From Actinomycetaceae bacterium (lineage in GTDB: Bacteria; Actinomycetota; Actinomycetes; Actinomycetales; Actinomycetaceae), in NCBI GenBank assembly GCA_030532405.1, contig JAUNLF010000001.1:62001-126000 (forward strand): a DNA stretch of 64,000 bases. The letters are read 5' to 3'. Position numbers and translations under genes: made by a program. Positions 24,342 to 36,751 of this stretch are shown piece by piece (the stretch's first letter is position 1; every line of letters begins with the position of its first letter). Below the pieces are notes generated by a model. It saw nothing but the letters and a program-made list of their open reading frames with translations. It did not search any database and was not told the DNA's origin.

Positions 24342-26927
24342 ATGCAGACCCTGACAAAGAAGGACGCGCAGGCACGCGATGCCAGCGTAACTCTAAACGA
24401 AATCGACGTATTTCTAGACCTGTCCAACGCGAAAACAGACGCGGATACGTTCCAATCCAAATCCGTAATGCGCCTGCGGACCGACCGGTCAGAAGTTTTC
24501 GTCGACCTCATTGCCGATGCCGTAGAAAAGGTTGAAGTGAACGGCGAGCCGGCTCGTTTTGAAGCCAGCGAAACACGCGTCACGATCTTCGACCTGCCCA
24601 CAAACGCTGACATTGAGCTAAGCGTTGAAGCGGCGTGCAAATACTCAACCACCGGCGAGGGACTGCACCGCTACACCGACCCCGAAGACGGCGAAACCTA
24701 CCTTTACACCCAGTACGAACCCACCGACGCGCGCCGCGTTTACGCGTGTTTCGACCAGCCCGGCATGAAGGCGCGCTGGCAGTTCCAAATCACCGCGCCC
24801 GCCGACTGGACCGTCCTATCGAACCAGTCGCATTCCTCCCGCATTTTAATCAACAGGGATGAGGGCGTAGCCCGCTGGACCTTTGAACGCACAATGCCGC
24901 TGTCTTCCTACATCACGGCCGTGGTTGCCGGGCCCTACGCGCACGTAGACGGAGGCGTTTGGAGCGGGGGAGCATCCGACGGAAAACAGGTAGACGTGCC
25001 GCTTGGAATCTACTGCAGGCGCGCACTACAGCCCTACCTGGACGCCGAAGACATCCTAAAGGTCACGCGCGCGGGCCTGGACTTTTACCACTCCCACTAC
25101 GGGTTCACGTACCCGTGGGGCAAGTACGACCAAATCTTTGTACCCGAATACAACCTGGGCGCAATGGAAAACCCAGGTTGCGTCACGTTTAACGAAAAGA
25201 TGATCTCGCGCGACACGCCCACCAAGGCGGCACGCCAATCGCGCGCCAACGTGATCTTCCACGAAATGTGCCACATGTGGTTCGGCGACCTCGTCACCCC
25301 GAAGTGGTGGGACGACCTGTGGCTGAAAGAATCCTTCGCCGACAACCAAGGCTCGTTCGGCCTCGCGGAAAACACCGAGTTCACCGACGAGTGGGCAACC
25401 TTTGCATCCGGCCGCAAGGAATGGGCGTACAAGCAAGACCAGCTCCCGACCTCGCACCCGATCGCAGCGGAAATCGAAGACGTCGAAGCCGCGAAGAACA
25501 ACTTTGATGGCATTACCTACGCGAAGGGCGCGGCAGTTTTGAAACAGCTCGTCGCCTACGTTGGTGCCGACTCCTTCTTTGCCGGCGCGCGCCGCTACTT
25601 CCAAGACCACGCGTTCGGCGCCACCAAGATGGCAGACTTCCTGCGCGCCCTCGAAGAATCCTCTGACCGCGACGACCTGGACGCCTGGCAAAAAGCGTGG
25701 CTACACACCGTCGGCCCGTCCAAACTTCACGCGAAGCGACACGGCGACCACGCCGACATCATCCAAGAATCCATCGACCCCACCACGGGTGAAACCCAGC
25801 TTCGCCCTCATAGAATCAATATCGGCTTCTATAAAACACAAGACGACAAACTTGTCCGAGTCGCGAAACAAGAAATCACACTATCTGGGCAACGCCGCAA
25901 AGTTGATTACCCCAAGGGCGAAGACGACTTCGACCTCATTTTGCCCAACGAGGACGACCTAACCTACGCGATCGTTGTTTTAGACGAGGACGAACTGAAA
26001 GTCGCACTAAAACTCGTCGGCACTATCGCGGAAGCAACCTCGCGCGCAGTCGTGTGGTCCGCCCTGTGGGCCGCGGTCCGGGACGCACGCGTAAACCCGC
26101 GCGACTACGTCAAAGCCGTTACAACCCACGTCGTGGGGGAGGGCGACGACGCCGTCGCATCGGACCTGATCGCAAACGCGCTGCACGCGATCACCTACTT
26201 CATGCCCACCAACGTGCGGCGAACCGCGGCGGCAACCTTTGCAAACCTAGCGATCGACGCCATCGGCAAGTCCACAAGCAAAGACAGGAAACGACAGTGG
26301 GCACAGGCGGCCGTGCGCGGCCTGATACTAGCCGGATCGCCAAACGACGACCAAGTCGCATACCTGCAAGACCTCGCCGCAGAACACTCCCACCTGCTAG
26401 AAGTAGGACCAAGCCTCGCGTGGCAAGCACGCGTCGCACTGTCCGCCATCGGCAAACTCGAGGACTCCAAGATCGAGGAATACCTACAAGTCGACCGGTC
26501 CGGCGAAGCCGAAGTATTCGCCCTGCGAGCACGCGCCGCCCGCCCCGATCGACTCAGCCGCCACCGGTACTGGGATAGCGTCCTCGAAACCGAAATGGCA
26601 AACGACAAAATGACCGCCATATTGAACGGACTATCCGACGGGGCACTCGCAAACGACGTACTCGGATTCGCCGGAGACTTCTTCGACCTCGTACTGCCAT
26701 TTTGGAATGATCACACGATCGGAATGGGCACTCGATTTGTACGGGGCGCGTACCCTGGAGTAATAGATGCCACGCGCGGACCCGACGCGGAAGCACTGCG
26801 GTTCATGGCATCGCACTGGCTATCTCAATACGACGAAGCTCCAGACGCCTTGCGCAGGCTCATGCTTGAAGAACAAGACGAACTGGAACGCAGGCTTAGG
26901 ATCCAAACGAAGTGGCTGACCGTTTAA
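24342..26927 (+). CDS. pepN: Aminopeptidase N (M1 zinc metallopeptidase)
   Basis: An 861-residue cytoplasmic aminopeptidase that removes N-terminal residues from peptides. The exopeptidase motif GAMEN is at residues 273-277; the zinc site is HEMCH (307-311) with the third ligand Glu330, giving HExxH-x18-E. A long helical ERAP1-like C-terminal domain fills the rest. Length and order match actinobacterial PepN. ATG 24342 is preferred over an upstream start at 24297 because a leaderless -10 lies just before it and the upstream residues are inside the antiporter gene. Confidence 0.96.
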   Translation: MQTLTKKDAQARDASVTLNEIDVFLDLSNAKTDADTFQSKSVMRLRTDRSEVFVDLIADAVEKVEVNGEPARFEASETRVTIFDLPTNADIELSVEAACKYSTTGEGLHRYTDPEDGETYLYTQYEPTDARRVYACFDQPGMKARWQFQITAPADWTVLSNQSHSSRILINRDEGVARWTFERTMPLSSYITAVVAGPYAHVDGGVWSGGASDGKQVDVPLGIYCRRALQPYLDAEDILKVTRAGLDFYHSHYGFTYPWGKYDQIFVPEYNLGAMENPGCVTFNEKMISRDTPTKAARQSRANVIFHEMCHMWFGDLVTPKWWDDLWLKESFADNQGSFGLAENTEFTDEWATFASGRKEWAYKQDQLPTSHPIAAEIEDVEAAKNNFDGITYAKGAAVLKQLVAYVGADSFFAGARRYFQDHAFGATKMADFLRALEESSDRDDLDAWQKAWLHTVGPSKLHAKRHGDHADIIQESIDPTTGETQLRPHRINIGFYKTQDDKLVRVAKQEITLSGQRRKVDYPKGEDDFDLILPNEDDLTYAIVVLDEDELKVALKLVGTIAEATSRAVVWSALWAAVRDARVNPRDYVKAVTTHVVGEGDDAVASDLIANALHAITYFMPTNVRRTAAATFANLAIDAIGKSTSKDRKRQWAQAAVRGLILAGSPNDDQVAYLQDLAAEHSHLLEVGPSLAWQARVALSAIGKLEDSKIEEYLQVDRSGEAEVFALRARAARPDRLSRHRYWDSVLETEMANDKMTAILNGLSDGALANDVLGFAGDFFDLVLPFWNDHTIGMGTRFVRGAYPGVIDATRGPDAEALRFMASHWLSQYDEAPDALRRLMLEEQDELERRLRIQTKWLTV

Positions 26928-27760
26928 GGCCTAAACAGGAAACAAACGAGCAACCGCGGGCAACACGCGCTAAGAAGCGTGACCCCGCGGCCTCAATGTC
27001 GCTGTTGCAGGCACTGCTGTACGACCCGTTAAACTACGGTTTTTCAGCCGTGGAAAAGCCCGGGGACGGGCCGCGCAAACCCGGAGACGTCATCATCACC
27101 ATCGTGGTGGCAGCCGTACTGGCATTCGGAGCGACAGTCGCGGCGGAACATCTCATCGCGCGCGAAACCCAACACGAGCAGACGCTTAGCAACCTGCGCG
27201 ACCAGATTTCCCGCCAGCAAGAAGTGGTCCGCAGCCTGCAGGTCGACAACGACGAGCTTTCCGCATCGATCGCCCTACTGGCCTCCAGTGAACGCAGGCA
27301 ACTACCCGAAGGATCAGCCGCCGCCAGCCTTTCAGAACGCGACTACATTCACGGCCCCGGCATCAGCGCAACAATGACCGAACAGTCCGTTAACGACCCG
27401 CAGGCCCGCGTGCTAGACACCGACCTGCGCGTAGTCGTAAACGCGCTGTGGAGCGGGGGAGCCGAAGGCATCGAGATCAACGGCCAACGCCTCGGCCCCA
27501 CCACGGCGATCCGAACCGCCGGCGGAACCGTTTTAATCAACTTCGCGCCAGTCGCCCCGCCCTACGAAATCCGCGCAATCGGCAGCCCCGAAAAACTAGA
27601 GCGCACCCTAAAGACGGGCACCGTTGGCGACTACCTGTCGACCCTTTACTCAAAGTACGGCATCGGCATGGCTGTAAAGCCGCAAGAGGACGTGCTCCTC
27701 GAGCCCGCAAACATTCGTAACGCAACCATCGCAACAACCTTGGACCAGGAGCAATCATGA
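26912..27760 (+). CDS. DUF881 membrane-anchored protein (first copy)
   Basis: A 282-residue protein: basic cytoplasmic N-terminus (about 60 residues), one membrane segment (about 59-79), a coiled coil (about 85-125, rich in Gln, Arg and Glu), then the DUF881 domain containing YIHGPGISATMTE and LRVVVNALWSGGAEGIEING. Function unknown; DUF881-Sbp-DUF881 clusters are conserved in actinobacteria beside gcvH-garA-ftsR. The GTG at 26912 overlaps pepN by 16 bases and has no clear ribosome site; ATG 26996 is an alternative. Its stop overlaps the next gene (ATGA). Confidence 0.85.
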   Translation: MADRLRPKQETNEQPRATRAKKRDPAASMSLLQALLYDPLNYGFSAVEKPGDGPRKPGDVIITIVVAAVLAFGATVAAEHLIARETQHEQTLSNLRDQISRQQEVVRSLQVDNDELSASIALLASSERRQLPEGSAAASLSERDYIHGPGISATMTEQSVNDPQARVLDTDLRVVVNALWSGGAEGIEINGQRLGPTTAIRTAGGTVLINFAPVAPPYEIRAIGSPEKLERTLKTGTVGDYLSTLYSKYGIGMAVKPQEDVLLEPANIRNATIATTLDQEQS

Positions 27761-28089
27761 TCGCGATCATCGGACTCGTAATAGGTGTCGTGCTAGGAAT
27801 CGTGCTTGAACCGACAATTCCTTACGCCTTCCAGCCGTACCTGCCGATCGCAGTTGTCGCCGCGATCGACGCCCTTTTCGGTGCGGCGCGGGCGTGGCTT
27901 GAAGGCTCGTTCTCCGACAAGGTCTTCATCATGTCGTTCTTCTGGAACGTCGTCGTCGCAGCGCTACTCGTGCTGCTTGGCGCGCAACTGGGCGTGGGTG
28001 CAGCCATGACCACGGCAATCGTCGTCGTCCTCGGTATCCGAATCTTCTCCAACGCTGCCGCGATCCGCCGCAGCATCTTCGGAGCCTGA
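27757..28089 (+). CDS. sbp: Small basic membrane protein (DUF1290, Sbp)
   Basis: A 110-residue, almost wholly hydrophobic protein with three membrane segments. MIAIIGLVIGVVLGIVLEP at the start, PYLPIAVVAAIDALFGAARA in the middle and a last segment ending in IRIFSNAAAIRRSIFG match the DUF1290 small basic protein family. It lies between two DUF881 genes with ATGA overlap upstream and 1 base downstream. Role unknown; the three products may form one envelope complex. Confidence 0.92.
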   Translation: MIAIIGLVIGVVLGIVLEPTIPYAFQPYLPIAVVAAIDALFGAARAWLEGSFSDKVFIMSFFWNVVVAALLVLLGAQLGVGAAMTTAIVVVLGIRIFSNAAAIRRSIFGA

Positions 28090-28090
28090 C

Positions 28091-28816
28091 ATGACAGAGC
28101 CCAAACCTGCAAACCAAAGGCGCCTTCGCGACATCCTCACGGTGCGTTTCCGGCCGATCCACCTGGTAATCGCGCTGATGATGTTAGCGCTTGGGTTCGC
28201 CCTCGTATCGCAAATAAAAATCCAAAGTTCAGATCCTCTCGATGGCGTTCAAGAGGACGAGCTGGTGCTACTTTTGGACCAGCTAACGCAAGCTGAAGAG
28301 CAGATGCGAGACGAGCGCTCCGTCCTGTCAGACCAGTTGGAAAAACTGCAGTCGGAACAGTCGCAAGAACAAGCCGCGCGCGAATCAGCGCTGCGAGAAT
28401 TGCGGCAGGCCCAAATCTTAGGTGGAACTGTTCCCGTTGAGGGCCCCGGCCTCATCATGACGGTGACCGAAGGTGGCACACCCATTTCGGAAGGCAAGTT
28501 CGTAACCGTCCTTGGTGAACTTCGAAACGCGGGCGCCGAGGCCATCGAGCTGAACGGCAACAGGGTCGTGGCGTCCTCGTATATCACGCGTGACGAAAGT
28601 GGGATGAAAGTCTCAGGCAACCCAATCTCATCGCCCTACGTGTGGAAAATAATCGGTGACGCCGACACTATTCAACCCGCGCTCGAGATTGCGAAAGGCG
28701 CGACCTCACAGCTGCGCGCAAGCGAGGCAACCATCGACATTACAAGGGCCGATTTAGTTACGATTGACTCGGTTGCGCCAACGCAAAATTACACGTGGGC
28801 CGAGCCAGTCGAGTAA
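28091..28816 (+). CDS. DUF881 membrane-anchored protein (second copy)
   Basis: A 241-residue paralogue of the first DUF881 protein. It has a short basic N-terminus, one membrane segment (about 18-35), a coiled coil rich in Glu and Gln (about 45-105) and the DUF881 domain with VEGPGLIMTVTEGG and LGELRNAGAEAIELNGNRVV. It starts 2 bases after the sbp stop, so the three genes form one operon. It corresponds in position to the Rv1825-type gene of mycobacteria. The gcvH gene that usually follows is absent. Confidence 0.87.
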   Translation: MTEPKPANQRRLRDILTVRFRPIHLVIALMMLALGFALVSQIKIQSSDPLDGVQEDELVLLLDQLTQAEEQMRDERSVLSDQLEKLQSEQSQEQAARESALRELRQAQILGGTVPVEGPGLIMTVTEGGTPISEGKFVTVLGELRNAGAEAIELNGNRVVASSYITRDESGMKVSGNPISSPYVWKIIGDADTIQPALEIAKGATSQLRASEATIDITRADLVTIDSVAPTQNYTWAEPVE

Positions 28817-28852
28817 CATTTCAAAATCTGGATAAGTTGGTCGTTTAGACCT

Positions 28853-28867
28853 AAGCTTGAAGGTTAG
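28853..28867 (+). promoter_or_regulatory. MerR-cluster motif, copy 1
   Basis: AAGCTTGAAGGTTAG lies 36 bases before the FHA gene. It matches copy 2 (30116-30130) in 13 of 15 positions and copy 3 (30781-30791) in its TTGAAGGTTAG core. TTAGATAGCAAAAT overlaps its end; a near-identical TTAGATAACAAAAT lies near copy 2. Likely an operator of one of the MerR proteins. Confidence 0.5.
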
Positions 28868-28903
28868 ATAGCAAAATTTTGAACGTAGGAAAAGGAGCTG
28901 GCG

Positions 28904-29344
28904 ATGTCCAATCAAAACGCGCCTGACCCGAATGAAACAGCCGTATTCGGCTCGTTTGGGGCGCCTAGCGAACCAGAGGAATCGTTTGTCAACCAGCCCC
29001 TGTCCGCCCGTGACCAAAGCGCCGTTGACGCGCTACCCGCCGGGTCGGCTCTGCTGATTGTCCAGCGCGGCCCGAACTCCGGTGCCCGTTTCCTACTGGA
29101 TGCCGAAGTCACCACCGCGGGACGCAGCCCGAAGGCCGATATTTTCCTTGACGACGTCACCGTTTCGCGTCGTCACTGCGAATTTCGTGCGTCGGAGGGC
29201 GGCTTTGTTGTCCGCGACTCCGGCTCGCTGAACGGCACGTACGTGAACCGCGAACGCACTGAAAGTGCCCGCCTAAACGCCGGTGATGAAGTTCAAATTG
29301 GTAAGTACCGCCTGACCTACCATCCTTCACCGCGTAATTCATGA
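28904..29344 (+). CDS. GarA/OdhI-like FHA-domain protein
   Basis: A 146-residue protein. The FHA domain (about 50-140) shows GRSPKADIFLDDVTVSRRHC and DSGSLNGTYVN, which bind phosphothreonine. The N-terminal NETAVF resembles the ETTSVF phosphorylation motif of mycobacterial GarA and corynebacterial OdhI, which control 2-oxoglutarate metabolism, but has only one threonine (Thr12) where those have two. The stop overlaps the next start (ATGA). Shine-Dalgarno AAGGAG is present. Its place before the FtsR-like gene matches GarA. Confidence 0.88.
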   Translation: MSNQNAPDPNETAVFGSFGAPSEPEESFVNQPLSARDQSAVDALPAGSALLIVQRGPNSGARFLLDAEVTTAGRSPKADIFLDDVTVSRRHCEFRASEGGFVVRDSGSLNGTYVNRERTESARLNAGDEVQIGKYRLTYHPSPRNS

Positions 29345-30087
29345 ACGCGCGCAAACTACGCGCGGAACAGACACCACAGACAAGCTGGCCCAGGGATGTG
29401 TCCCATGAGCCGCGCATGACTATCGGGCAGGTAACGGAACAGGTGAAAACCGAGTTTCCGGCTATTACGGTATCCAAAATCCGCTTCTTGGAAACCGAGG
29501 GTTTGCTTTCCCCGTATCGCAGCACGACGGGCTACCGAAAGTATTCGACCGCGGATGTGGAGCGCCTGCGCTATATTTTGACCGAGCAACGCGACTCGTA
29601 CCGGCCGCTTCGCGTGATTCGCGACCAGCTTCGCGCCCTCGATGCCGGCCATGAAGTTGAACGCGTCCCGACTGCGCGCGTCGTTTCGGATAAGGGGCAG
29701 ACGCGCCTGCCCAGCACCGATCATATTTCGGTGCGGCAACTGTGCGACCTGACCGGCACGTCCAAGGATGACGTCGAAGAGTTCACCAAGCTCGGCCTCC
29801 TTTCACCCGATTTGGGCGGATATTTTCCGACCCGTTCGATTCGGATTGTCCAGCATATTTTGACGCTTCGTTCCGAAGGCATCGACCCTAGGAACTTGCG
29901 CGGCGTTCGTCAGGCCGCGGAGCGTCACGCGGACATCATCGACCATTCCGTATCGTCAATTCGTGCACGAGGGCGATCTGGGGACGTCGAACGGGCGAGG
30001 GCTCGCAGCCAGGAATTAGCTGAAGTGACGGGTGAGCTACACCGCGAATTTTTGCGGCTATCAATTGATAGGCTGGCAGAAGGCTAA
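29341..30087 (+). CDS. ftsR: FtsR-like MerR-family regulator
   Basis: A 248-residue protein with an N-terminal MerR winged helix (TIGQVTEQVKTEFPAITVSK, then LLSPYRSTTGYRKYSTADVE) and a second helical part. It corresponds to mycobacterial Rv1828 and to FtsR of Corynebacterium, which activates ftsZ. It overlaps the FHA gene by 4 bases, so both are made together. In mycobacteria a bifunctional-nuclease gene separates it from the next MerR gene; here that gene is missing. Confidence 0.87.
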   Translation: MNARKLRAEQTPQTSWPRDVSHEPRMTIGQVTEQVKTEFPAITVSKIRFLETEGLLSPYRSTTGYRKYSTADVERLRYILTEQRDSYRPLRVIRDQLRALDAGHEVERVPTARVVSDKGQTRLPSTDHISVRQLCDLTGTSKDDVEEFTKLGLLSPDLGGYFPTRSIRIVQHILTLRSEGIDPRNLRGVRQAAERHADIIDHSVSSIRARGRSGDVERARARSQELAEVTGELHREFLRLSIDRLAEG

Positions 30088-30115
30088 AGCTTAGATAACA
30101 AAATAGTCTCAAGTT

Positions 30116-30130
30116 AAGGTTGAAGGTGAG
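30116..30130 (+). promoter_or_regulatory. MerR-cluster motif, copy 2
   Basis: AAGGTTGAAGGTGAG lies in the 136-base gap before the second MerR gene. TTAGATAACAAAAT (30091-30104) just upstream matches the sequence beside copy 1 in 13 of 14 bases. Candidate operator and promoter of the downstream gene. Confidence 0.5.
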
Positions 30131-30223
30131 GCACGCCGGAGCGATCATTGACGACGCATTCCATCCGGCATAGCGTGTTTACCAGTTCAACCCAGCAACA
30201 CGGATCATTCGAGGAGTACACAG

Positions 30224-30784
30224 GTGGCACAAGAACTGCAAGACGCCGAACAGTCCCGGCAGGGAATGTTGTTTGGCGATCTCCTCGCTGACATTGGCCC
30301 CGACACCGGCTACCGCGGACGCGTAGCATGTCAGGCGGCCGGTATCACGTACCGCCAGCTCGATTACTGGGCGCGCACCGGTTTGGTGGAGCCCTCGATT
30401 CGCGGAGCGCACGGCTCCGGCAGTCAGCGCCTGTACTCTTTCCGCGACATTCTGGTGCTAAAGGTAGTTAAGCGCCTGCTGGACACGGGCGTGTCACTGC
30501 AGCAGATCCGCACCGCGGTGTCACACCTTAAGGACAGGGGAGTAGAAGACCTGTCCACAATCACACTTATGAGCGACGGCGCATCAGTTTACGAGTGCCG
30601 CTCACGCGACGAGATGATCGACCTCATCGAAGGTGGTCAAGGCGTATTTGGCATCGCTGTTGGTCGCGTGTGGCGCGAGATTGAAGGGTCGTTGGCGGAG
30701 CTTCCCAGTGAAGAGGCCGAGCCGATGCCACCCATGGTTGACGAGCTTGCGGAGCGTCGCCGCCAGCGTCGAAGCGCTTCCTAA
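30224..30784 (+). CDS. Rv1830-like MerR-family regulator
   Basis: A 186-residue regulator with the MerR DNA-binding segment GYRGRVACQAAGITYRQLDY followed by ARTGLVEPS and LYSFRDILVLKVVKRLLDTG. It corresponds in position and pattern to mycobacterial Rv1830 (McdR/ResR), which affects cell growth and division. GTG at 30224 has GAGGAG upstream. The stop codon overlaps copy 3 of the repeated motif, and a strong terminator follows, so this ends the cluster. Confidence 0.87.
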   Translation: MAQELQDAEQSRQGMLFGDLLADIGPDTGYRGRVACQAAGITYRQLDYWARTGLVEPSIRGAHGSGSQRLYSFRDILVLKVVKRLLDTGVSLQQIRTAVSHLKDRGVEDLSTITLMSDGASVYECRSRDEMIDLIEGGQGVFGIAVGRVWREIEGSLAELPSEEAEPMPPMVDELAERRRQRRSAS

Positions 30785-30853: not shown

Positions 30854-33370
30854 CTACGCCGCGTGACGCAGGCGAATCTGCTGCAGATCCATCTGCCTTG
30901 CCTTTGACGCTGCGATCAGTGTGAATCCAAACGCCACCAGGCCCCAAATCAGAAGCGGGATAGCGCTTCCAAAGAAGCTGGTCAGATTACCGCCAACAAC
31001 GGTGTACATCAGACCTTCAGTCACGTAAGAAAGCGGGAGGAATCCGCTTAGCGACTGGAATGCTCCCGGTGCGGTTTGGATGGGGATAATCCCGTCTAGC
31101 GAAACCACTTGGACCACCAGGAACAGCAGGGCGAGTACGCGTCCAATGCGCGCACCAGCAACCGCGAGCAACGCCTGGTTGATCGCCGCAAAGGATAGCG
31201 CGGCTAGGATCATCAAAGTGGTTGTCGTGATTAGGTTGTTCGGACGCACTCCAAGCGCGGTTGCCACGATTCCCACACCGATCGCCTGAGCCAGGCCGAT
31301 CAGGGCCGCCCACTTGTAGGAGTTCCACGCAATTGACGCGGGTTTTGCGCTACTTGCTAGTTCCCGTTTACGAAGACCTGGCATCGCCAGGTACGTGCCG
31401 AAAGCTCCGAGCCACAAGACGATACCCGCGGCCCACGGGAACGTGGAATTAGCCCTGGACTTGGCCTCGTTCATCGCCGCGGACTGTGACAGCACAGGTA
31501 GCGCACCCATTTCCACGATGCGGGTGCGTTCGGCATCCGTATAGCTAGGTACCTGGTCCGCACCCGACTTCAACTCGGTTGCAAACCTGGTCGTACCATT
31601 AATCAGTTCTTGAACGCCGGCGTACAACTGGTCTATACCGCCCGAAAGTTCGTAAGCCCCTCCGGACAGTTCACCGGCCCCGGCCGCAAGCTGGTTTGTA
31701 CCCGAGGACAGTTCGTCGACACCGTCAACTAGCTGCGCGATTCCAGGCATCGCCTGGTTGATTCCATCAGCCAGCTGGCGAGCTCCGCTTACCAGGCCGG
31801 GCTGGCCCGCAGTCCCATCCAGACCCGCCTGCATTAGCGCGGCACCGTCCGATAGTTGTTGCAGGCCCTGCGCTAGTCCAATATTTCCAGGCGTTCCGTT
31901 CACCCCGTCGGCGAGTTGCTGTGCACCGTCGCTCAGCTGAGCTACGCCCTCACGCAATGTTTCAAGTTCGCCACTAATACCTTCAAACCCGCCGGCTTCC
32001 TCGAGCATCGCAATCATACTCTCAACTTCAGCTTGGAAAGCCAGAACGCGGTCAACAAAATCGTTGATACCCAGGTCTGCGATGAGCTGATTCAACTCAT
32101 CGAGCGCGACCTGCACCTGCGGATCCGAATCGGGAATCTGCGCCACTGCGGCCTCAAGGTCAACTACCGCCTGGGCTAGGCCGGCACAAAACTCGGGCGT
32201 TTCATCGGCCGGACACTGCGCCACCGAATCTTGCAGGCGGGGGAGTACGCCCACGTACTGGTCATTTCCGTACAGGAGCGCCTTCACCGATGCGAGCAAC
32301 GCCTCCGACGTGGCCAGCGTTTCACGAATCCGCTCAACCTCCGCAGTCAGCTGCGCAGAACTTGGAATTTCATCCAAGAGGTCGTCCGGCACCTGGGCTT
32401 CGATCTCGGCAAGCGGAACCAACACGCGTTGGAGGCCGTCAACCAGCTGGTTAATACCGTCCTCAAGTTGAGCCGTGCCGTCAGCTAGCTGCGCTGTTCC
32501 TTCGGCAAGCCCACCCGGGCCGTTCACGCCCTCATTCATTTGATCGATACCCTGCTTCAGACCCTGCTGACTTTCGGTCCCAACGAAGCCGTCGCGGAAC
32601 TGCTCGAGCCCGCCGGCCAGGGAATCTGCGCCCGAGCCCATCTGGCCAAGGCCCCCGTAAAGTTGTTTCACGCCGGAGTTGAGCTCTCCCGTGCCCGCCG
32701 CCAGCTGGTAGAGTCCGTCGGCAAGCTGCCCCGAACCGTCCGCAAGCTGGCTGGCACCATCGTTCAGCAGTCCGACGCCATCACCCATTTCTTTGGCACC
32801 GTCGTCCAGTTGCTGCGCGCCGTCAGCAGCCTGCCCCAGCTGGTCTTTCATGTCGTTGAAGCCCAGGAAGATACCGTCAAGCATTTGCTCGGTGAGCATG
32901 GTTCCCATCGCGTTTGCCGCGGCCGTCGCGATCTGCGTCGAGATCACGCCCATGAGCTCCGAGGACGCGTCATTAGACGTAACCGTGATCAAAGCCGGTG
33001 TGGCGTCGACGGTGCCCATGGATGCGACATTCTTGGAAAACTCCTTCGGAATCGTCAAGATCGCTTCAAAATCACCATTATTCAGGCCTTCACGCGCAGT
33101 TTCCTCGGTAACCAACGTCCAGTCGAGGTTGATATCAAACGGCTCCTCGGGATACATCAACCCGCCAACCAGTTCGCGACCGAGCGGCACCGTTTGCTCT
33201 TTGCCGTCAATCACCATGGTCGTGCCCTCGTCGTTATTCACGATCGCCGCGGGCACGTTGTCAAAGTTTTGCGTGCGCTCCACCATCGACCACAGTGTCA
33301 ATGCGGTTGCCAACACGGGAAGAAGCAGGACTGCAACTATTGCGCGCCAGTCACGTAGCGTCATTTTCAT
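30854..33370 (-). CDS. YhgE/Pip-family membrane protein
   Basis: An 838-residue protein. One N-terminal membrane segment (about 8-28) is followed by the Pip domain (VPAAIVNNDEGTT), a long extracytoplasmic stretch (about 180-620) dominated by seven-residue repeats of the type QLADGxx/LxxG, and five to six C-terminal membrane segments. YhgE/Pip proteins resemble phage-infection protein and EsaA, and are thought to form envelope channels or exporters. ATG at 33370 overlaps the stop of the MMPL gene (ATGA), so both proteins probably act together. The repeats are at protein level; the DNA has diverged. Confidence 0.9.
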   Translation of the reverse strand: MKMTLRDWRAIVAVLLLPVLATALTLWSMVERTQNFDNVPAAIVNNDEGTTMVIDGKEQTVPLGRELVGGLMYPEEPFDINLDWTLVTEETAREGLNNGDFEAILTIPKEFSKNVASMGTVDATPALITVTSNDASSELMGVISTQIATAAANAMGTMLTEQMLDGIFLGFNDMKDQLGQAADGAQQLDDGAKEMGDGVGLLNDGASQLADGSGQLADGLYQLAAGTGELNSGVKQLYGGLGQMGSGADSLAGGLEQFRDGFVGTESQQGLKQGIDQMNEGVNGPGGLAEGTAQLADGTAQLEDGINQLVDGLQRVLVPLAEIEAQVPDDLLDEIPSSAQLTAEVERIRETLATSEALLASVKALLYGNDQYVGVLPRLQDSVAQCPADETPEFCAGLAQAVVDLEAAVAQIPDSDPQVQVALDELNQLIADLGINDFVDRVLAFQAEVESMIAMLEEAGGFEGISGELETLREGVAQLSDGAQQLADGVNGTPGNIGLAQGLQQLSDGAALMQAGLDGTAGQPGLVSGARQLADGINQAMPGIAQLVDGVDELSSGTNQLAAGAGELSGGAYELSGGIDQLYAGVQELINGTTRFATELKSGADQVPSYTDAERTRIVEMGALPVLSQSAAMNEAKSRANSTFPWAAGIVLWLGAFGTYLAMPGLRKRELASSAKPASIAWNSYKWAALIGLAQAIGVGIVATALGVRPNNLITTTTLMILAALSFAAINQALLAVAGARIGRVLALLFLVVQVVSLDGIIPIQTAPGAFQSLSGFLPLSYVTEGLMYTVVGGNLTSFFGSAIPLLIWGLVAFGFTLIAASKARQMDLQQIRLRHAA

Positions 33371-36051
33371 TTTGCGCTCACCTTTTCTTCCACTCGCGTC
33401 GGCACTTCGTAAGTTTTCTCGCCTTCAAATAAATCGTGGTTATCAGGCCCAAGTACGAGGGCGCCGCCGGCCTGCACATTTTCCATAATCTTGATCTTCT
33501 CGTCGTCGCGCAGCCGTCGGTTCACTAAGAAAAGCATCGGCTTGTCGGTGCTTTCGATCCTGGTGAATCGATCATCCAGGTAGGCGGTTCGGCGGATAAC
33601 CCGGGCGGACTCATCCAGCGCCGATATATCGAATACAAAGACGGATCCTGCCTGGGGGCGAATGCGAGCACCCAGCGCGCCCAGCATGGCTTCCGCGGAT
33701 GCAGGCTCGCCCTCCAACCGGATTACATCGCGAGGGCGAACTGCCAGGTCGGCTTCAAACACGAGGTCTCCGGAGCTGTCGCCAATGGTGACGTCGTTCG
33801 CACGGGCGACAACCTCGCCGTATTTGCGCTGCCAGTCCAGGTGCTTGAAGTGCAGGTCCATGCCGGCGCCTTCAACGTCGAACACGGGCAGGATGCGGTC
33901 CAACCACTTCGGGATGTACCACGCGCGTTCACCAAGGATCTGCATGACGGCGGGCACCAGCGTCATGCGCACCAAGAATGCGTCAACGCCGACGCCGACC
34001 AGCAGGCCGAACGCGATCGGCTGCACATAGAACGACCCGTCGGGAATGAAACCGGAGAACACCGACATCATGATCAGCGCGGCCGCAACTACGACGGGGG
34101 CGGATGCTTGGAAGCCAGTGCGTATGGACTCGCGGGCGCGGCCCGTGTGAACGTAGTCCTCCGCCATACGCGACACGAGGAACAGTTCGTAGTCCATCGC
34201 CAGGCCGAACAGCACACCCATCAAAATGATCGGCATAAACGAAATGACGGGGCCGACCTGACCGATCATTAGTAAGTCGTTTGCAAACCCGTTGATGAAC
34301 ACGAGCGTCGTCATACCAAACGCGGCACCCACCGAGAACAGGTAGCCAAGCGTCGCTTTGATTGGAATCCAAATCGAGCGGAACACGATGAGCAGTAGCA
34401 CGAGCGACAAGCCCACAACCACAATGCCAAACGGCAAGAGGGCGGTGAACAACCGCTGAGACACGTCGATCGCAACGGCCGCCGATCCGGTTACCTTGAT
34501 GTCGTTGATGTCGTATTCGGCCTCCCACTGGGGAGCCATGCCGCGCAACGTGTGAACCAGGTTTTCAGTCTCAATGGACTCCGGGCTATCTTCGGGCAGT
34601 ACAACCACGACCCCGAGGTCCGCACTGCGGTTAGGCGTTGCGATCTGCACGCTATCAACGCCGTCTAATGCTTCAACTTCCGCCTTAAGATCGGCCATGA
34701 GGCCGAGCGGATCCTGCGACGTTACGATGTCACCGATGATCACCAGCGGCCCGTTTGCGCCCTCACCAAACTGCTCTGCAACCAGGTCGTAGGTTTGGCG
34801 CGCCATCGTGTCTTCGTCCTCAACACCGTTATCTGGCAGCGCAATGCGAAGATTCACAGCCGGAACGGTCATGAGGGCGACCAGCGCCGTGACCACCAGT
34901 ATCGTCAGCCACGGGTGGTTGGTAACCGTGCGCGCCCACCAAGCAGATGCCTTGTGCGAGCTCTCTTTTTTCTGTTCTACTAGCTCCTGGGCGGCCTCGG
35001 CCTGCTCCTTGCGGTCTTTACCTTCGCGGCGCTTGCGTTTCTTGGGGCGCAGTCGCTCGCCCATGAGCGCCAAAATTGCGGGCAGTCCCGTCACCGCCAT
35101 GATCGCGGCGATAGCGACCGCGAGGGCCGCGGACATACCCATGATCGTGAGGAACGGGATGTTTGCGACAAATAGTGCCATGAGGGCGATCACGACCGTT
35201 GTGCCGGCAAACAAAACAGCAGCGCCGGAAGTCGCAATGGCGCGGGGGATAGACTCTTCGACCGTGTAACCTTCCGCGAGTTGGTCGCGGTGGCGCGACA
35301 CGATGAACAGCGCGTAGTCGATGCCAACCGCGAGGCCAAGCATGATTGCAAGCGTTGGGGTAGTGGTCGAAATCGGGATAAACGCGGCCACCACGAGTAC
35401 GAGTGCCATCGCGATTCCAACCCCCAAAAGGGCGGAGATGATGGGAATACTTGCGGTTCGGATAGACCGGAATGCAACTGCAAGCACTATCAGAGCGAGC
35501 ACGACGCCAACGGCTTCCAGCGGGGACAGCGGGACTTCCGTAAGCGACATGATCTGGCCACCAACGTGGACCGATAGGCCGTATTGTTCAGCTTGTTTAG
35601 AGACTTCGACAAGCTGGTCGATCGAGTCTTGGTTTAGCGAGTCTAGCGAGAAGCTGAACTGCACCTGCGACATCGCGTACTGCTCGTTATCAGAGATAAC
35701 GGGGTCCATAAATGAGTCATCGAACGGGTTTCCAACCGTCGTCGCGTAGGGGATTGACTCGGCTTCCTTTAAGATCTGGGTGATCTCGGATTCGTAATCC
35801 CAGATACTCTCACCCTCGGGCGCTCCGAATACGACCTGGCCGGCGGCGCCGGACATTTCCGGAAAACGCTCGGCCATAACATCAAGGCCGTCCTGGCCTT
35901 CGGTGCCCGGAATCGTGAAGTCGTTAGTGAGCTGTCCGCCCAGCGCAAACATCGCAACAACGGTTGCGACCAAAACAGCAATCCAGGCGGCAAGTACCTT
36001 CTTCGCGTTGCGTACTGTCGCCGTTGCCAATCTAAATAGAACTGATGACAC
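33367..36051 (-). CDS. MMPL/RND transporter with C-terminal ABC-ATPase-like domain
   Basis: An 894-residue protein. Residues about 1-720 are an MMPL transporter: two groups of membrane segments and motifs such as GLAVGIDYALFIVSRHRDQL and GLAMDYELFLVSRMAEDY. From about 748 to 893 there is a soluble domain whose start reads like an ABC ATPase (DLVFEADLAVRPRDVIRLEG, then ALGARIRPQAGSVFVFD) but with a broken P-loop: G-E-P-A-S-A-E-A at 781-788, with Glu787 in place of lysine. No ABC signature or Walker B was found. GTG start at 36051 follows GGGGA. Coupled to the Pip gene; divergent from a TetR regulator. Probably exports a lipid or hydrophobic compound. Confidence 0.88.
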   Translation of the reverse strand: MSSVLFRLATATVRNAKKVLAAWIAVLVATVVAMFALGGQLTNDFTIPGTEGQDGLDVMAERFPEMSGAAGQVVFGAPEGESIWDYESEITQILKEAESIPYATTVGNPFDDSFMDPVISDNEQYAMSQVQFSFSLDSLNQDSIDQLVEVSKQAEQYGLSVHVGGQIMSLTEVPLSPLEAVGVVLALIVLAVAFRSIRTASIPIISALLGVGIAMALVLVVAAFIPISTTTPTLAIMLGLAVGIDYALFIVSRHRDQLAEGYTVEESIPRAIATSGAAVLFAGTTVVIALMALFVANIPFLTIMGMSAALAVAIAAIMAVTGLPAILALMGERLRPKKRKRREGKDRKEQAEAAQELVEQKKESSHKASAWWARTVTNHPWLTILVVTALVALMTVPAVNLRIALPDNGVEDEDTMARQTYDLVAEQFGEGANGPLVIIGDIVTSQDPLGLMADLKAEVEALDGVDSVQIATPNRSADLGVVVVLPEDSPESIETENLVHTLRGMAPQWEAEYDINDIKVTGSAAVAIDVSQRLFTALLPFGIVVVGLSLVLLLIVFRSIWIPIKATLGYLFSVGAAFGMTTLVFINGFANDLLMIGQVGPVISFMPIILMGVLFGLAMDYELFLVSRMAEDYVHTGRARESIRTGFQASAPVVVAAALIMMSVFSGFIPDGSFYVQPIAFGLLVGVGVDAFLVRMTLVPAVMQILGERAWYIPKWLDRILPVFDVEGAGMDLHFKHLDWQRKYGEVVARANDVTIGDSSGDLVFEADLAVRPRDVIRLEGEPASAEAMLGALGARIRPQAGSVFVFDISALDESARVIRRTAYLDDRFTRIESTDKPMLFLVNRRLRDDEKIKIMENVQAGGALVLGPDNHDLFEGEKTYEVPTRVEEKVSAK

Positions 36052-36064
36052 TTATGTCCCCGTT

Positions 36065-36079
36065 AATGTACGATACATT
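36065..36079. promoter_or_regulatory. Candidate TetR operator
   Basis: AATGTA-CGA-TACATT is a perfect inverted repeat in the 82-base divergent region, 14 bases before the MMPL start. A wider imperfect repeat extends to 36093. TetR repressors usually bind such sites beside their own gene. A TACTAT at 36091-36096 may be the tetR -10. Confidence 0.6.
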
Positions 36080-36133
36080 TTTGTATTCAATACTATTATG
36101 AATCCAGCGGGACGCAACAGCGAAAAGGTAGCA

Positions 36134-36751
36134 ATGGAACCAAAAAGCGCGAAAAGAAAGCGCAGTCACACGCGCACGAAACTCGTGTCGGCTGCAGCGC
36201 AGGTGTTTGCCGCCAAAGGCGTTGCCGGTGCCACCGTTGACGACCTTGTGCAGGCCGCCGGATTCACCAGGGGAGCGTTCTACTCCAACTTTTCAAACAA
36301 AGAAGAAGTCTTTGCCGCGGCTCTCAGCGAGTTCACCGAAGACCTGGTCGACGCCATGCAGTTGGGCATCGACGAGCGCGGTCCATCAAACTCCCCAAAC
36401 GACGCTATCCGTGCAATATTGTCTTCAATCCGGCCGCTAGGACGCGTGTGGGTGCTTTTGGAGGCCGAGGGCGTGCGTCAGGCGCTAATTAACGAGGACG
36501 TGCGACGCGTTTACCTGGAATCGCGCGATTATCTTCAGCGCGCACTCTTAGATGCCATGACCCAAAGCGGTTACGCCGTCACTGAAAAACTGGCGCAATA
36601 CCCCCAGCCACTGCTTCGAACACTAGCGGAACTACTGCTAAACGCTTATTCCGAATCGATTATCCGCGAACTGCTAGAAGGTACGGATTCCACGGGCCGC
36701 CTAGTCGAGCTCCTCATACAGGTCCTGGGTATCAACGACGAAACCGCCTAA
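36134..36751 (+). CDS. TetR/AcrR-family transcriptional regulator
   Basis: A 205-residue regulator. The DNA-binding domain is at about residues 13-60: TRTKLVSAAAQVFAAKG, then VDDLVQAAGFTRGAFYSNF, the classic TetR helix-turn-helix. The C-terminal part binds an unknown ligand. ATG 36134 has AAAAGG upstream; ATG 36098 is also in frame but lies at or before the predicted transcription start. Divergent from MMPL-Pip with one palindrome between, so it most likely represses that exporter and itself. A strong terminator lies 108 bases downstream. Confidence 0.88.
   Translation: MEPKSAKRKRSHTRTKLVSAAAQVFAAKGVAGATVDDLVQAAGFTRGAFYSNFSNKEEVFAAALSEFTEDLVDAMQLGIDERGPSNSPNDAIRAILSSIRPLGRVWVLLEAEGVRQALINEDVRRVYLESRDYLQRALLDAMTQSGYAVTEKLAQYPQPLLRTLAELLLNAYSESIIRELLEGTDSTGRLVELLIQVLGINDETA

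Follow-up and report, generated by a model that had tools for sequence, protein, structure and literature searches.

Pip/YhgE proteins are mainly known as phage receptors and have no settled function in the cell. Degenerate sites are common in heterodimeric ATP-binding cassette (ABC) transporters. To our knowledge, no MmpL protein has been described with a nucleotide-binding domain (NBD), and in the literature that we searched, a coverage outside which most subscription papers fall, we found no description of an MMPL transporter with an NBD or of an MMPL-Pip pair. Here, we looked at such a locus in a stretch of 64,000 nucleotides from an Actinomycetaceae bacterium (assembly GCA_030532405.1, contig JAUNLF010000001.1, positions 62,001 to 126,000), hereafter called the window. 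The reverse strand of the window encodes an MMPL transporter whose C-terminal tail is, judged by profile comparisons, a degenerate ABC NBD (residues 748-894), and the gene that follows encodes a Pip protein. On balance, we think that this tail probably serves as a pseudo-NBD dock, the remnant of an NBD that partnered Pip, tying the MMPL pump to the ABC-2-like Pip as one export machine.

The MMPL transporter with its pseudo-NBD (33367..36051, reverse strand, as are all features below unless said otherwise) has 894 amino acids and matches PF03176 with 276.7 bits for a cut-off of 20.5. Like the MmpL3-type RND exporters of that family, it has a core (728 residues) with the MMPL profile and the Asp-Tyr pairs; unlike them, it carries a C-terminal NBD remnant and has a Pip partner. 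The two pairs, D245-Y246 (35314..35319) and D620-Y621 (34189..34194), are invariant in an alignment of 17 fused MMPLs (A4) and are presumably the proton-relay pairs known from MmpL3; since both are kept, the pump could be proton-driven. The core ends with RAWYIPKWLDR...DVEGAGM (residues 709-731, 33859..33927), which stands directly before the extra domain and in which several columns of the same alignment vary little or not at all. The Pip protein (30854..33370, 838 amino acids) is ABC-2-like, with N- and C-terminal Pip parts flanking a region of X-X-X-L-X-X-G heptads. It passes the cut-offs of TIGR03061 (111.6 bits for 96.15), TIGR03062 (110.3 bits for 102.2), TIGR03057 and PF12698 (ABC2_membrane_3, 61.7 bits). 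The stop of the MMPL gene and the start of the Pip gene share 4 nucleotides (33367-33370), so that the window has Pip immediately downstream, as expected of a module made of an MMPL-pseudo-NBD fusion and Pip. Compared with the YhgE/Pip and EsaA/YueB-type proteins, the window Pip is alike in passing TIGR03061 and TIGR03062, and it matches the EsaA N-terminus with 46.3 bits, below the cut-off of 122; it differs in its place after an MMPL-NBD fusion.

An earlier note, made from the sequence alone, had proposed that an ABC-like domain without P-loop is found at the C-terminus of this MMPL. The tail stretches that it quoted are present in the 894-residue open reading frame (ORF) at the residues that it gave: VARANDVTI (748-756), DLVFEADLAV (762-771) and DVIRLEG (775-781). 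The domain as a whole (33370..33810) is devoid of the helical subdomain and of every residue needed for the usual binding and splitting of ATP. In the alignment, GEPASAEA (residues 781-788, 33688..33711) stands at the Walker A position, with the lysine and the Ser/Thr of the motif gone and a loop that is one residue short, which bears out the loss of the P-loop. It is followed by GARIRP (794-799, 33655..33672), which contains R796. Complete NBDs have their helical subdomain and signature at a site corresponding to residues about 820-839 (33535..33594); there, the profile-profile alignment described below gives a deletion, about 6 residues fall in the helical columns, and neither the LSGGQ signature nor the helical subdomain of PF00005 is present. 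The strand equivalent to Walker B reads LFLVNR (840-845, 33517..33534), with Asn instead of the Walker B Asp and then Arg, and no catalytic Glu. The absence of signature and Walker B noted earlier was thus confirmed. Contrarily, AGGALVLGPDNHD (861-873, 33433..33471), which had been taken for the place of an H-loop, is the strand after Walker B in the profile-profile and multiple alignments, and no conserved histidine was seen there in the alignments of fused tails or of standalone NBDs; the H-loop reading was therefore abandoned.

Taken alone, the window tail matched nothing in Pfam or NCBIfam even with an E limit of 10, a search of PHROGs was unproductive, and phmmer against the PDB gave three non-ABC matches, the best with E 0.21. 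The tail differs in this from ABC_tran (PF00005), of which it lacks the P-loop, the signature, the Walker B residues and the helical subdomain. A search of 59 genomes gave 20 homologous tails, that of the window included, and a profile (A3) was built from 17 degenerate fused tails with the linker removed, none of them with GK[S/T]. Against the PDB, A3 matched 228 sequences at E up to 10, and among the 60 matches listed all were of ABC type. The best whole-chain match was ABCA3 (E 4.6e-6, the sum of two weak stretches of about E 0.7-0.8 each) and the best single-stretch match was ABCA4 (E 8.1e-6). A second profile (A2) was made from 16 standalone NBDs found next to Pip genes together with L168, a fused relative discussed below. 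The best PDB matches of both A2 and A3 are ABCA3 and ABCA4, a likeness to solved ABCA-type NBDs to which the match of Pip to ABC2_membrane_3 can be added. When A3 was compared with A2 by hhalign, the probability was 98.8 (E 5e-17, 134 columns): the alignment spans the Walker B strand and the strands and helix around the P-loop, and has a gap in place of the helical subdomain. Moreover, a search of 5278 ORFs of the fetched loci with A3 gave, apart from the MMPLs, 31 matches with E of 0.1 or below. Pip-adjacent NBDs made up 19 of the top 20, the remaining one being a frame-shifted fused-tail piece from L105; the lower 11 comprised two further Pip-adjacent NBDs, six ORFs in which a Walker A lysine is accompanied by an LSGG-like word, two with a Walker A lysine only and one with neither. 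The reversed A3 profile matched none of the same 5278 ORFs. In NCBIfam, the matches listed for six relatives were all to ABC models and fell far short of the cut-offs, so that no named family was found for this NBD. Another profile, A1, was not specific, as all 396 genomes matched and many of the matches are probably other ABC proteins. Altogether, these comparisons indicate that the ABC-like domain of the earlier note does exist.

We then looked at the genes around such domains. In the first set of loci, 47 bear a tail, and in 46 of them the MMPL stop is followed after 0-117 nucleotides by the start of the Pip N-terminal domain; the remaining one, L105, has a frame shift, and there too Pip is next. 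No Pip was found in the 10 tail-less MMPL loci of this set, where about 15 kb was covered, or 9 kb for L113. These 47 and 10 loci include two loci each from genomes G087, G329 and G404. Among 80 loci from named organisms, Pip lies within 18-96 nucleotides in all 68 scorable tail-bearing loci and in none of the 7 tail-less ones; five were left unscored because of contig ends (L192, L241, L242) or of broken or frame-shifted ORFs (L221, L223). Separate ABC-like genes beside Pip, which had been expected in other actinobacteria, were found as well: we compared 20 loci (L102-L104, L151-L159, L161, L163-L166, L180-L182) in which a standalone NBD-like gene is directly upstream of Pip and no MMPL was found, and two more cases, L162 and L183, were found later. 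Fourteen of the 20 were chosen via Pip. The other six (L102-L104, L180-L182, all of one genus) were chosen via the NBD profile, so that their Pip adjacency is not built into the selection; in these, a standalone NBD with a Walker A lysine adjoins Pip, again with no MMPL found. At the lysine position, the 20 standalone NBDs have Lys in 8 cases, Arg in 7 and another residue in 5. The arginine form, of GPSGSGRT type, is seen for instance in L152:6362-7291, L153:7555-8328 and L156:5944-7068, and also in L155, L158 and L159. The standalone NBDs resemble the fused tails in belonging to the same NBD family by profile, in the GRM-type motif, in the R796 and G802 positions, in the Walker B strand and in their place upstream of Pip. 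They differ in being separate genes in loci without MMPL, and in a helical region that is largely present in A2.

These arrangements are consistent with the following course of events. An NBD like those that serve as partners of the ABC-2-like Pip would have been joined to the end of an RND-type MMPL, giving an operon of MMPL-NBD and then Pip. Since the constant companion of this NBD is Pip, with or without MMPL, the fusion would tie the MMPL to Pip. The ATPase site would then have decayed repeatedly while the fold and the family residues were retained, and the helical subdomain would have been deleted in at least two lineages, among them that of the window. Because the active site has decayed and other parts are kept, the tail would link two membrane proteins rather than burn ATP: as a non-catalytic cytosolic domain, it would on the simplest reading occupy the NBD site on the cytosolic side of Pip and, once docked, hold or drive Pip, with the proton-motive force in place of ATP. 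The machine could export hydrophobic or envelope substrates, and the extracytoplasmic heptad region of Pip would be its outer part. A bolder version, which we put forward only tentatively, is that Pip, a protein of ABC-2 type, has switched its energy source, the NBD captured by the MMPL, relieved of ATP hydrolysis, serving as the mechanical piece that couples proton flow in the MMPL to Pip in a hybrid RND-ABC machine present in many actinobacterial families.

To describe the tails across actinobacteria, a tail was called fused when 150-300 residues follow the DVEG-type motif. An MMPL ORF was present in 171 loci. Removal of 23 duplicates and of 4 loci without linker motif (L008, L101, L221, L262) left 144; two frame-shifted loci (L105, L223) and two affected by contig ends (L192, L242) were then excluded, giving 124 fused and 16 tail-less MMPLs. 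The latter, which end 15-66 residues past the motif, are just those most similar to the window MMPL, and genomes with a G label may overlap in species with the named ones. GK[S/T] is kept in 9 of the 124 distinct fused tails: L019, L168, L195 (Bifidobacterium panos), L196 (Amycolatopsis azurea), L202 (Kutzneria), L228 (Myceligenerans), L231 (Arenivirga), L235 (Amycolatopsis eburnea) and L265 (Diaminobutyricibacter). In L168 (genome G628, same class), the MMPL carries a full-length NBD as its tail, with GPSGSGKT and VLVVDDAD, and this tail reaches 57 bits against PF00005, for a cut-off of 25. That of L019, with GARPCGKS, also passes (28 bits), L011 stays below the cut-off (16.7 bits), and L018 and L083 have no ABC match in Pfam. 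Homologues that keep a P-loop, without which the earlier note would not have held to its ABC reading, are therefore found, and two of them are recognised as ABC_tran. The helical region has at least 50 residues in 21 of the 124 fused tails and at most 26 in the other 103; it coexists with the P-loop in L168 only. No SGG was found in the aligned signature columns of the fused tails (0/124), most of which have a gap there, or of the standalone NBDs (0/20), and the Walker B Asp-Glu pair is found in one fused tail (L230) and in no standalone NBD. G802 is conserved in all 124 fused tails and R796 in 119, and both in all 20 standalone NBDs.

These counts bear on a possible regulatory role of the tail, in which a degenerate NBD would gate the MMPL or Pip and would bind or sense a nucleotide, or have done so in the past. 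Nine tails keep GK[S/T], and the eight of them without helical subdomain could bind nucleotide and would hardly hydrolyse it by the usual ABC route. However, 115 of the 124 tails are without GK[S/T] though the domain persisted, which precludes P-loop nucleotide sensing as the role of these tails in general, and we regard the regulator as an unlikely explanation.

The tail could also be a neutral relic, a fusion that was once functional and is now decaying. The loss of the active site in many lineages agrees with this, and we looked at the history of the tail in a tree of the MMPL core (FastTree, tail excluded, 140 rows, 124 fused and 16 tail-less), in which some forks are unsupported. The fused rows form one side of a branch with a support of 99 and all 16 tail-less MMPLs fall outside; the NBD-MMPL fusion probably arose once. 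Named carriers belong to nine families, including Microbacteriaceae, Nocardioidaceae, Propionibacteriaceae, Pseudonocardiaceae, Bifidobacteriaceae and Actinomycetaceae. With the tree rooted on the tail-less rows, the P-loop changed at least 4 times, or was lost 8 times if it was ancestral and never regained, and the helical region changed 3 times (threshold of 60 residues), or was lost twice if never regained (threshold of 50), all these counts depending on the FastTree trees. In four pairs, the ratio of nonsynonymous to synonymous substitution rates was 0.12-0.19 for the tail and 0.07-0.13 for the core, two of the pairs being near synonymous saturation. The tail thus diverges faster than the core in 3 of the 4 pairs, as a relic might, and equally within rounding in the remaining one. 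Nevertheless, such ratios, even with two pairs near saturation, speak against neutrality: the tail is under purifying selection. The nearly invariant R796 and G802 and the position of all the sampled tail-less MMPLs outside the fused group also argue against decay, and we consider a relic improbable.

To place the Pip proteins themselves, a Pip tree was made with eleven loci that carry tandem Pip pairs (L167, L169-L178) as outgroup. The Pips of fused loci cluster, and those of six loci with an intact NBD are nearest outside, with weak support. Among the rows that the script labelled as standing alone, L101, L105 and L223 are fused loci and L221 is a locus with a broken MMPL. In the eleven outgroup loci, no operon of the tandem Pips was found to contain an NBD gene, be it between the two Pips or immediately upstream of them; ABC-type ORFs occur near the tandem Pips in L167, L169, L172 and L175. 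One of these pairs belongs to the genome of the window itself, which has two more Pip genes in tandem beside apparent trp genes (G000:C4:6308-11376, L171), and no NBD gene of the Pip-adjacent family was found in the 17-kb stretch of L171.

Ordinary ABC-type genes, spotted with a generic ABC hidden Markov model that was seeded from a single ORF and used solely for this, occur within a few kb in some fused loci, such as L078, L087, L091, L105 and L106. They would suit a composite ATPase made up of the degenerate tail and an intact NBD encoded elsewhere, an arrangement like that of heterodimeric ABC exporters in which one of the two sites is degenerate. None of these genes, however, lies between the adjoining MMPL and Pip genes, and the helical subdomain, the part that donates the signature to the partner site, is gone in 103 of the 124 tails; we give this explanation very little credence. 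Finally, a chance resemblance of a tail unrelated to ABC proteins, for which the lack of a significant match of the window tail alone in Pfam, NCBIfam and the PDB might be quoted, was rejected as hardly credible in view of the hhalign probability of 98.8, the A3 matches in the PDB, the empty reversed profile and L168.

Several observations weigh against the docking of a non-catalytic tail on Pip as we propose it. One fused clade keeps Walker A in 6 of 7 rows (L019, L195, L196, L202, L228, L235) without the helical subdomain; because of this, nucleotide binding may still matter in this short-tailed clade, whose members are possibly nucleotide binders that do not hydrolyse by the usual ABC route. 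As the standalone NBDs beside Pip have neither SGG in the aligned signature columns (0/20) nor the Walker B Glu (0/20), the NBD family may have been a poor ATPase even before the fusion. In the Pip tree, the Pip of the standalone locus L183 has a long branch and is placed among the Pips of fused loci, in a part where branches are weak. The ordinary ABC-type genes near some fused loci could possibly supply an ATPase in trans there, or be plain neighbours. The faster divergence of the tail in 3 of the 4 pairs also has to be counted here. Lastly, adjacency and fusion can suggest docking but are no proof of it.

Other features of these loci were observed. In L105 and L223, long ORFs had the appearance of single-chain MMPL-NBD-Pip fusions; this candidate was rejected, as the long ORFs result from frame shifts within the tail, beyond which an out-of-frame reading runs to Pip. 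Long or broken MMPL ORFs that result from a frame change or a break within or close to the tail are those at L105:4910-9745, L223:4001-8875 and L221:4001-5380. Three fused MMPL loci have, some 2 kb upstream and on the opposite strand, a gene for an ABC ATPase of ordinary appearance (L087:2005-2871, L105:1920-2819, L106:1953-2885). In the window, a divergent ORF (35903..36751, forward strand) encodes a TetR-like regulator, a family read from its sequence, and its true start is probably inside the listed ORF. A similar ORF is upstream in 74 of 107 fused loci, divergent in 53 and on the same strand in 21, as counted on stop-to-stop ORFs. On the other side of the module, the forward strand of the window (26912-30784) has genes that we take to encode two DUF881-type proteins, a small membrane protein, an FHA-domain protein and two MerR-like regulators.

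If the tail is a dock of the kind proposed here, Pip/YhgE proteins would gain a concrete partner and a role that can be tested. In many lineages of the family, an ABC domain has lost its active site and still kept its place beside the same partner. The family is also a natural experiment that asks if an ABC-2-like transporter can run on something besides its own ATPase. For biochemistry, it would offer a graded series, from the complete fused NBD of L168, through the tails that keep the P-loop only (L019, L196, L202 and others), to the form found in the window.

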